Shown here piece after piece: positions 694 to 52,313 of a stretch of 64,000 nucleotides of DNA (positions are counted from its first letter, which is position 1; each line of letters opens with the position of its first letter). Source of the stretch: Spirochaetota bacterium (GTDB taxonomy: Bacteria > Spirochaetota > UBA4802 > JAGODF01); contig JARKUF010000002.1 of assembly GCA_029974015.1 (NCBI GenBank), positions 1 through 64,000 of the forward strand, given 5' to 3'. The position numbers and the translations under genes are program-made. Under the pieces are notes generated by a model. That model made no database searches and was not told the DNA's origin. It saw nothing but the letters and a program-made list of their open reading frames with translations.

Positions 694-740
694 GGCAACC
701 TCTAATAATTGGGTTTTTCCGCCCGCATTCGGCGGGCGGA
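694..740. repeat. Dispersed hairpin repeat, copy A
   Basis: This copy of the window's dispersed element starts with the GGCAACCTCTAATAATT edge and continues into a GC-rich hairpin, CCGCCCGC with GCGGGCGG. It lies in the gene-free stretch of about 440 bases between the VapC remnant and the next gene. Apart from this and the two copies that follow, I see nothing else there. Confidence 0.75.
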
Positions 741-931
741 GCTATTGAAATTCCTGGAGTTACATTGAAAAAAGTCTTGTCGTTTTGAAGCGGCTCGCAT
801 TTGAATATTAATAAGTGGGGGTGATAGCCCGTTATTGCAGCGGATGCGATATGCCGCAAGGGACAATAGTGGGGATTCTCGATTAGGGAGCTGTTGAAAC
901 ACCGACGTCCGAGAGCGTTATTGACCAGGGG

Positions 932-977
932 TGGCCTCTAAAAATTTGGTTTTCCGCCCATTTCCAGCAGGCGGGAA
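932..977. repeat. Dispersed hairpin repeat, degenerate copy B
   Basis: GGCCTCTAAAAATTTGGTTTTCCGCCC followed by an imperfect return arm, GGCGGGAAA. The left edge is close to the consensus but the stem has diverged, which suggests an old copy. A further hairpin copy follows about 50 bases downstream. Confidence 0.6.
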
Positions 978-1022
978 AGCTCAGTTTTTTTGATTGCCCT
1001 AAAGTCAAACTTAGAATTATGA

Positions 1023-1049
1023 TTTCCGCCCGCCACCGGCGGGCGGAAA
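1023..1049. repeat. Dispersed hairpin repeat, copy C
   Basis: A perfect 12-bp stem, TTTCCGCCCGCC with GGCGGGCGGAAA, around an ACC loop. The right flank AAGTGCTAAGC matches the right flank of better preserved copies (for example AGTGCTGAG at 17040). It ends about 30 bases before the next gene. Confidence 0.7.
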
Positions 1050-1079
1050 ATAAAAGTGCTAAGCTAGTGGGAGATTATT

Positions 1080-7275: not shown

Positions 7276-7340
7276 GGCAACCTCTAATAATTAGGTTTTC
7301 CCGCCCGCCGAAGACGGGCGGGAAAACCTAAGTCCTGAGT
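7276..7340. repeat. Dispersed hairpin repeat, copy D
   Basis: A near-consensus left half: GGCAACCTCTAATAATTAGG, then GTTTTCCCGCCCG..CGGGCGGGAAAAC, then CTAAGTCCTGAG. The outer AGGTTTT/AAAACCT bases extend the stem to roughly 20 bp. It lies between gltX and the DUF3108-like gene. The second hairpin of the full element is not recognisable here. Confidence 0.85.
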
Positions 7341-7375
7341 ATGCCGAGGTTCTCAATTGCTATCGGGAGAGGAAT

Positions 7376-13041: not shown

Positions 13042-13084
13042 TTTCTTGACAGCATGTACGGCCTGGCGCCGAATGTTACTGTCA

Positions 13085-13230
13085 TCGGGGATTCGTATGC
13101 GCCCCGGTGCCGTTAACGGAGGAAGTCGGGTGGGAAACCCGCGCTGTCCCGCAACTGTGGTGCCGCCCCGGGCGGCCAAGCCAGGAACTCCGCTACGCTG
13201 GATATCCTCGAGGATTGGGAACCAGGCCGG
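13085..13230 (+). ncRNA. Cobalamin riboswitch
   Basis: The core sequences of the adenosylcobalamin riboswitch are present: GGTGCCGTTAACGG, GGGAAACCCGCGCTGTCCCG, CGCAACTGTGG and AAGCCAGGAAC (the B12-box region). It lies in the 5' leader of the BtuB-like receptor gene on the same strand and is followed by a hairpin with a T-run. The usual action is to shut down expression of uptake genes when cobalamin is abundant. Exact boundaries are approximate. Confidence 0.92.
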
Positions 13231-16984: not shown

Positions 16985-17104
16985 GGCAACCTCTAAAAAT
17001 CAGGTTTTCCCGCCCGCCGCAGGCGGGCGGGAAAACCTGAGTGCTGAGTCTGTTTGTAGTTGTAATTTATGGGGACCTGACAATTTGATTTTAAAAGGAC
17101 CCCC
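16985..17104. repeat. Dispersed composite repeat, full copy E
   Basis: The best complete copy. It has the edge GGCAACCTCTAAAAATCAGG, hairpin 1 GTTTTCCCGCCCGCC-GCA-GGCGGGCGGGAAAAC, flank CTGAGTGCTGAG, linker GTAGTTGTAATTTAT, then hairpin 2 GGGGACCT...AGGACCCC with an AATTTGATTTT centre. It lies between two same-strand signalling genes. The reverse complement of its edge supplies AGAGG upstream of the gene ending at 15445. Confidence 0.85.
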
Positions 17105-19543: not shown

Positions 19544-19655
19544 GGCCCGCGGTTACAGCGGGGACGGCACTTTGGATTATTCGTATTGTACGTACCGTTT
19601 GGCCAAATTTGCAAGAAGAAAAAAATCAAAAACCCTGCCTTGCGAGCTATCTTAT

Positions 19656-19692
19656 TGGTTTTCCCGCCCGCCTTCGGCGGGCGGGAAAACCA
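19656..19692. repeat. Dispersed hairpin repeat, copy F
   Basis: TGGTTTTCCCGCCCGCC-TTC-GGCGGGCGGGAAAACCA is a perfect 17-bp stem. The flanks differ from the consensus edge, so only hairpin 1 is clear. It lies between the hybrid kinase and flgB. Confidence 0.85.
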
Positions 19693-19807
19693 TATTTTTG
19701 AGCTTGCTTAAAGTTTTTTTTGGGGGGGGGCCCTTATGTCGCCAAAAAGTGCTAATGTAATAATTTGTTTTTCCGATTGATATAACAGGAAAAGGAAGAG
19801 GAATGCC

Positions 19808-20885: not shown

Positions 20886-20945
20886 GGCAATCTCTAAGAA
20901 TTAGGTTTTCCCGCCCGCCGAAGGGGGTCTGGAAAACCCCGGTTA
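20886..20945. repeat. Dispersed hairpin repeat, damaged copy G
   Basis: The left edge GGCAATCTCTAAGAATTAGG and the left arm GTTTTCCCGCCCGCC are intact, but the right arm is altered to GGGGGTCTGGAAAAC. The element lies inside the flagellar operon, so a weakened hairpin would reduce any termination effect there. Confidence 0.7.
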
Positions 20946-37594: not shown

Positions 37595-37785
37595 ATTACA
37601 GGGCGGTCACAAAAACTCAAGTGGGGCCTCAAAAAAATAATTTTTTTGAGGCCCCATGAATTGTAACTACTGACATTTTCAGGACTCAGGTTTACCCGCC
37701 CGCCGAAGGCGGGCGGGTAAACCCGGTTTTTGTGACTGCCCTCAAGTGGGACCTCAAAAATTTGATTTTTAGAGGTTTCCTTGAT
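37595..37785. repeat. Nested composite repeat with outer inverted arms, copy H
   Basis: Outer arms GGGCGGTCACAAAAAC (37601-37616) and GTTTTTGTGACTGCCC (37726-37741) pair with one mismatch. They enclose two hairpins: TGGGGCCTCAAAAAAAT with ATTTTTTTGAGGCCCCA (type 2), and GGTTTACCCGCCCGCC-GAA-GGCGGGCGGGTAAACC (type 1). Between these lies the conserved linker AATTGTAACTACTGACA in inverse orientation. After the right arm CTCAAGTGGGACCTCAAAAA repeats the type 2 sequence. The 446-base gap between fusA and the TPR gene holds only such sequence. Confidence 0.8.
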
Positions 37786-37855
37786 TTTAAAAGGCGCCCT
37801 CAAAATTTATAATTGCTGACATACTCGGGAATTACGATTTCCCGTCGGCCTTTTC

Positions 37856-41885: not shown

Positions 41886-42007
41886 AAGGAAACTTCTAAA
41901 AAATTTTGTTTTTCAGCACGCCAAAGGCGGGCGGAAAAATAAAATCCCGGGTTTGCCCGTAGTAACAATTTGTGGAAACTTGAAACATTTAATTTTTGTG
42001 GGTTCCC
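41886..42007. repeat. Dispersed composite repeat, degenerate copy I
   Basis: Same order as the full copy: diverged edge AAACTTCTAAAAAATTTTG, hairpin 1 remnant (CACGCCAAAGGCGGGCGG), linker GTAGTAACAATT, then hairpin 2, TGTGGAAACTTGAAACATTTAA leading to GTGGGTTCCC. Preservation of order despite sequence decay supports one composite element rather than chance neighbours. Confidence 0.7.
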
Positions 42008-44492: not shown

Positions 44493-44565
44493 GGCAATCC
44501 CAAATTTCATGTTTTCCCGCCCGCCTTCGGCGGGCGGGAAACACAGATATTGGTTTTGACAGAAG
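44493..44565. repeat. Dispersed hairpin repeat, copy J
   Basis: GTTTTCCCGCCCGCC-TTC-GGCGGGCGGGAAAC gives a near-perfect stem. The left edge GGCAATCCCAAATTTCATG is a diverged form of the consensus edge, and a second GGCAATCTCCGAATA follows at 44572. It lies between etfB and the tRNA gene. Confidence 0.75.
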
Positions 44566-52192: not shown

Positions 52193-52313
52193 GGCAACCT
52201 CTAATATTTTGGTTTTCACGTCCGCCTTCGGCGGGCGGGAAAAACAAATTGCCGAATTTGCCGGCGTTTTCAATTATTGGGAATCCTAAAAATTTGATTT
52301 TTTAAGGTCCCCT
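52193..52313. repeat. Dispersed composite repeat, copy K
   Basis: Edge GGCAACCTCTAATATTTTGG, hairpin 1 GTTTTCACGTCCGCC-TTC-GGCGGGCGGGAAAAAC, linker with CAATTATTGGGAATCC, then hairpin 2 with AAAAATTTGATTTTTT and AAGGTCCCC. It lies between two signalling genes on the minus strand, like copy E, with its edge abutting the upstream end of the phosphatase gene. Confidence 0.8.

Follow-up and report, generated by a model that had tools for sequence, protein, structure and literature searches.

Copies of the repeat in the window

The window, that is the whole 64,000-nucleotide stretch of DNA that was analysed, corresponds to the first 64,000 bases (1-64000) of contig 28 in a 3.26 Mb genome of 48 contigs, 94% complete (G000). 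Dispersed along it are copies of a composite repeat, the fullest of which show a left edge followed by a GC hairpin, then a linker and lastly an AT-centred hairpin (Table 1). With up to two mismatches allowed, the hairpin arm GTTTTCCCGCCCGCC was found at 15 places in the window compared to 0.42 expected, and the edge sequence begins the copies at 694, 7276, 16985, 20886 (where it reads GGCAATCTCTAA) and 52193. An earlier note on this DNA had described a hairpin family at intergenic sites; the family is clearly present, but the copy at 19655 overlaps a predicted ORF, so that it is uncertain whether all of the sites are intergenic. The same note held that the fullest copies share one order, and the three full copies at 16985, 41888 and 52193 do follow it. 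In an Rfam search of the window the repeat had no match above the gathering score; the matches were a tRNA and a cobalamin riboswitch alone (the latter at 13077-13208, RF00174, 34.3 bits), neither of them at a copy of the repeat.

Table 1. Copies and fragments of the repeat in the window
Feature	Position	Strand	Details
Left-half fragment	694..764	+	
Diverged hairpin	933..986	+	Continues ..TTTTTTTGATTGCCC, resembling a shorter (~92 bp) variant
Diverged hairpin-only fragment	1011..1065	+	
Left 84 bp of the repeat	7276..7359	+	Right part lost or diverged
Full-length copy	16985..17103	+	Left terminal inverted repeat GGCAACCTCTAA, GC hairpin 17003-17038, linker, AT-centred hairpin, right end AAAAGGACCCC
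Hairpin-only fragment	19655..19715	+	Diverged; possibly of the shorter variant; overlapped ORF is 125 aa
Left-half fragment	20886..20943	+	
Nearly full copy	37622..37740	-	Variant left end GGGCAGTCACAA / GGGCAGTCACAAAAA
Second, partial copy beside the 37622 copy	37748..37850	-	Matches model positions 38-119
Full-length copy, more diverged	41888..42007	+	
Left-half fragment	44493..44565	+	
Full-length copy	52193..52312	+	

Consensus and copy number

Alignment of 23 full copies gave a consensus of 120 bp, GGCAACCTCTAATAATTAGGTTTTCCCGCCCGCCTTCGGCGGGCGGGAAAACCTAAGTCCTGAGTATGCCAGTAGTTACAATTTATGGGAACCTCAAAAATTTAATTTTTAGAGGTTCCC, with one position lacking a majority, and an alignment of 88 copies gave the identical consensus. 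It runs from the left end GGCAACCTCTAA through the GC hairpin and linker to the AT-centred hairpin with its terminus AATTTTTAGAGGTTCCC; the linker and the ends outside the hairpins are also conserved. The termini GGCAACCTCTAATAATT and AATTTTTAGAGGTTCCC form imperfect terminal inverted repeats. At least two further variants are present in the same genome: one, around 92 bp long, retains only the last arm of the right hairpin (..TTTTTGTGACTGCCCTTAATTTTTAGAGGTTCCC), and another has a right part that terminates ..TAATTATTAGAGGTTGCC. The ~92-bp variant was seen at L023, L029, L030, L120:1-63 and L135:11455-11560, with TTAATTTTTAGAGGTTCCC as its right hairpin after ..TTTTTGTGACTGCCC. The motif AGAGG at both ends was considered as an outward ribosome-binding site for downstream genes, but this was rejected as the distances to start codons do not clearly cluster around the spacing such a site would require.

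The 12-bp edge GGCAACCTCTAA has 104 exact copies in the genome, compared to none for its reversed control. These are divided into 55 forward and 49 reverse, and the strand bias seen in the window is thus attributed to chance. A covariance model, the search that the earlier note had proposed, found at least 150 copies in this genome matching over the whole model; the repeat is short (<500 bp), non-coding and multicopy. Twelve 20-kb stretches, picked blind to their content, contained 46 copies or fragments, from which we extrapolate a total of around 620 in the genome, or about 1.6% of the DNA; totals beyond 150 are extrapolations from these stretches. Of the sampled copies, including those of the window, 45 of 58 lie outside ORFs, though only 12.6% of the sample does so by simple longest-first ORF calling. 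Copies diverge from the consensus by 11.7% at the median and by as little as 0.8%, so either the family amplified over an extended period or some of its members are fairly recent. In one stretch (L130, C4:60001-80000) ten copies or fragments are clustered within about 10 kb, some adjoining each other.

Target duplications and insertion sites

When the covariance model was used to set the element ends, exact 4-bp flanking duplications were found at 39 of the 85 full copies that have both flanks present, compared to 2.8 +/- 1.6 when the right flanks were shuffled among copies. No comparable excess was seen in these 85 copies for duplications of any other length. For the 4-bp duplications the binomial tail is 8e-35. 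The target sites are also symmetrically biased, T being found at -8 in 57 and A at +8 in 56 of the 85 copies. A weaker bias is seen for C and G at five, and the duplicated core is AT-rich; the target preference is palindromic. Exact 4-bp duplications also occur at most of the copies examined in a genome from another family of the same order, Spirochaetes bacterium ADurb.BinA120 (G016). At the copy at 16985 the flanks are TGAT and CGAT, agreeing at three of the four bases. Duplication of 4 bp is a signature of DDE-type transposition, and neither of REP/RAYT chemistry nor of terminators. The earlier note was right to see in the repeat a single mobile unit some 120 bp long.

These features bear directly upon the idea that the copies are independent terminators or attenuators which look alike because strong GC hairpins do so. 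The consensus is indeed very stable (-65.6 kcal/mol, z of -10.8 compared to shuffles) and the copies at 37622-37723 appear terminator-like in a simple scan. However, independent terminators would share neither a 120-bp consensus in which the linker and ends, lying beyond the hairpins, are conserved too, nor target duplications at those ends, and the consensus has no T-run 3' of its hairpins. The common ends and target duplications rule out terminators as the identity of the family, and we regard this explanation as hardly credible.

Matching intervals were also compared in a genome of the same genus (G001). The pair of copies at 37622-37850 is missing there, with 488 bp between the matched blocks in G000 compared to 257 bp in G001, and the fragment at 20886 is not recognisable (254 compared to 172 bp); both intervals are shorter by about the length of the repeat. 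The interval around the 16985 copy is 570 bp in G000 and 438 bp in G001. The intergenic DNA of G001 is so diverged that absence of the repeat is visible in these intervals, while base-exact junctions of the empty sites are not resolvable.

An IS5-family element with the same ends

The earlier note saw no transposase in the window, and this holds; candidates were found elsewhere. The only DDE_Tnp_1 match in the repeat's own genome is the 5'-truncated C-terminal tail of a transposase (C34:133466-133603, L120), and around 150 bp downstream of its stop codon lies AATTTTTAGAGGTTCCC, the right end of the repeat. The last 52 residues of the tail are 78% identical to an intact relative in G001. This relative is encoded by a 1,265-bp IS (L122:544-1808) with ends GGGAACCTCTAAAAATTAA..AAATTTTTAGAGGTTCCG and TTAA on both flanks. 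Its 339-amino acid transposase scores 256.8 bits against the IS5-family model NF033581 (transpos_IS5_4), where the cut-off is 140, comprises the domains PF05598 and PF01609, and has DDE-type motifs at residues 146, 246 and 293.

From the ends and TTAA flanks of the G001 IS, it and the repeat agree in their ends, in the length of the duplication and in the duplicated sequence; both have ends GG.AACCTCTAA.AATTA and a 4-bp duplication of TTAA type. An autonomous element with matching ends and duplication length is represented by the G001 IS, a remnant being present in G000, and the transposase with matching ends that had been looked for is of DDE type. The repeat differs in having no transposase gene, and beyond the ends nothing in its interior is clearly similar to the IS. 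Relatives are found further afield: on the Sphingopyxis plasmid NZ_AP017604.1 the transposase is 49% identical and the ends are of the same pattern (GGGCACCTCGAAAAAT), and relatives in genomes G012 and G035 have comparable right ends. A 342-amino acid IS5-family transposase gene in G035 (L126) also has TTAA flanking its inverted ends.

The repeat is very probably an IS5-derived MITE family, moved in trans by an IS5-family transposase that shares its ends. As judged from sequence, such a transposase would act on the inverted ends GG[C/G]AACCTCTAA.AATT and would insert the unit at AT-rich palindromes, generating a TTAA-like duplication of 4 bp. The family is probably no longer mobile in G000, since only the truncated transposase tail was found there. 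The IS is present in G001 with no match to the MITE, and the MITEs are present in G000 and G016 with no intact transposase found; thus in none of these three genomes were the MITE and an intact parent with closely matching ends found together. All three are fragmented MAGs, and an intact parent IS could therefore be missing from the G000 or G016 assemblies.

The earlier note had allowed for either a MITE-like or a REP-like element, and the inverted repeats, duplications and IS5-family ends decide for the former. A REP/REPIN-type element would instead be mobilised by a Y1 (IS200-like, RAYT) transposase acting on single-stranded hairpins. Two hairpins in fixed order and a high intergenic copy number would suit such an element, and the genome does contain one Y1_Tnp gene (L001:1132-1776, C13). 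This gene is not linked to the repeat, however: not one copy lies in the 3.2 kb around it, which reaches about 1.4 kb to each side. No Y1 transposase is known to generate target duplications, and yet these are exact at 39 of the 85 copies, whose ends moreover match an IS5-family element. Neither a linked Y1 gene flanked by the repeat nor a lack of target duplication was thus observed, and mobilisation of this kind is very unlikely. REP/REPIN systems with RAYT (PMC3116915) resemble the MITE in their hairpin pairs dispersed between genes; the MITE is distinguished by its 4-bp duplications, its DDE-type ends and a lone Y1 gene that is unlinked.

Distribution and comparison with known MITEs

Among 59 genomes searched, including G000 itself, strong copies were found in G000 and G016 alone, and weak matches in G029 and G035. 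Of 296 Spirochaetota genomes, two (again G000 and G016) matched at E <= 1e-8, under strict filters that could have overlooked weak relatives. The distribution is thus patchy. Between G000 and G016, the most similar copies reach 94% identity, whereas longer matches between the DNA of G000 and the congeneric G001 are mostly at 64-83%; on these sequence identities, horizontal transfer would be the simplest reading of the similarity between the G000 and G016 MITEs. Carriage by a phage or plasmid was considered, but no match was found among phages, plasmids or in an IMG/VR pattern scan. The weak matches (L105, L107 and L109 in G035, L104 in G029) are around 110 bp long and again contain one half of the inverted repeat and a second hairpin ending AGAGGTTCCC; these related MITEs have the two-hairpin layout with a stem that is AT-rich, not GC-rich. 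The three G035 copies, read by eye, are flanked at either end by TTAT, which is ATAA on the opposite strand.

IS-derived MITEs as a kind of element are well known, and bacterial examples have been reviewed, including Chunjie (Geobacter), Correia (Neisseria), QMITE2 (Coxiella) and ERIC, with copy numbers that reach hundreds (711 for ERIC in Photorhabdus) (PMC10969869). The new family is like these in its length below 500 bp, inverted ends, intergenic insertion and stable stem-loop, with direct repeats mainly in younger copies and many decayed fragments. It differs from them in sequence, in having IS5-type ends with 4-bp duplications and two hairpins in fixed order, and in its host order of uncultured Spirochaetota; the review (PMC10969869) mentions neither a spirochaete nor the term "IS5 family". 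A literature search found neither the 12-mer edge nor any IS5-derived MITE of a spirochaete. The suggestion that no described element matches is therefore upheld for the specific family, which is new to Rfam, the phage and plasmid records, the IMG/VR pattern scan and the literature searched, though ISfinder may list it; it does not extend to the kind of element.

A conspicuous repeat making up about 1.6% of a genome is in this way explained as a specific IS5-derived MITE. Furthermore, the three genomes form a natural series, with the parent IS but no MITEs in G001, MITEs and a broken parent in G000, and MITEs with the parent not found in G016.

Covariation and loop inversion in the hairpins

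Across 88 copies the stems contain 121 double-change cells, compared to 41.7 after shuffling; 91% of the stem cells are paired, compared to at most 59% with one arm slid, and compensated changes occur in 12 of the 19 pairs of the GC stem. Of the 3-base loops, 51 read TTC and 19 read GAA, the exact reverse complement. When the loop was left out of tree building, the 19 GAA copies required 19 changes, compared to 12-19 with shuffled labels, but the tree is nearly star-like and this test has little power. Two copies (L063 and L047) differ at only 1.7% of positions and yet have opposite loops.

Template switching while the DNA is replicated is the simplest explanation for the recurrent inversion between TTC and GAA. 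Homogenisation or matching of arms and inversion of the spacer are published footprints of template switching (PMC8604942, PMC8794818), and this process would yield both the matching of the arms and the flips of the loop without any function. The matched stem changes and flipped loops would then arise on the replicating palindrome and not from a role in the host.

Alternatively, the MITE origin may be right and the stems nevertheless maintained not by template switching but by selection for some role as RNA or DNA, be it in stabilising mRNA, in regulation or as a hairpin that transposition requires. The strong covariation, with its many compensated pairs, would be expected from this, as would recurrence of the two-hairpin layout with a different stem sequence in the MITEs of G029 and G035. 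The flips of the loop, also between copies as alike as L063 and L047 (98%), argue against it, as do the published footprints, and selection of this kind appears unlikely. It is quite unlikely, too, that the two-hairpin composite is a functional unit in which selection and template switching both keep the hairpins, the fold aiding transposition or acting in transcripts; were this so, the layout would be persisting while the stems change, from GC in G000 and G016 to AT-rich in G035. Since a single genome carries the same palindrome hundreds of times over, the family is also well suited to tracing, in natural sequence, how hairpins invert and their arms become homogenised.

At one further copy (L007:1442-1512) the first hairpin has become a near-perfect palindrome of 71 bp, which looks like the result of copying one arm onto the other.
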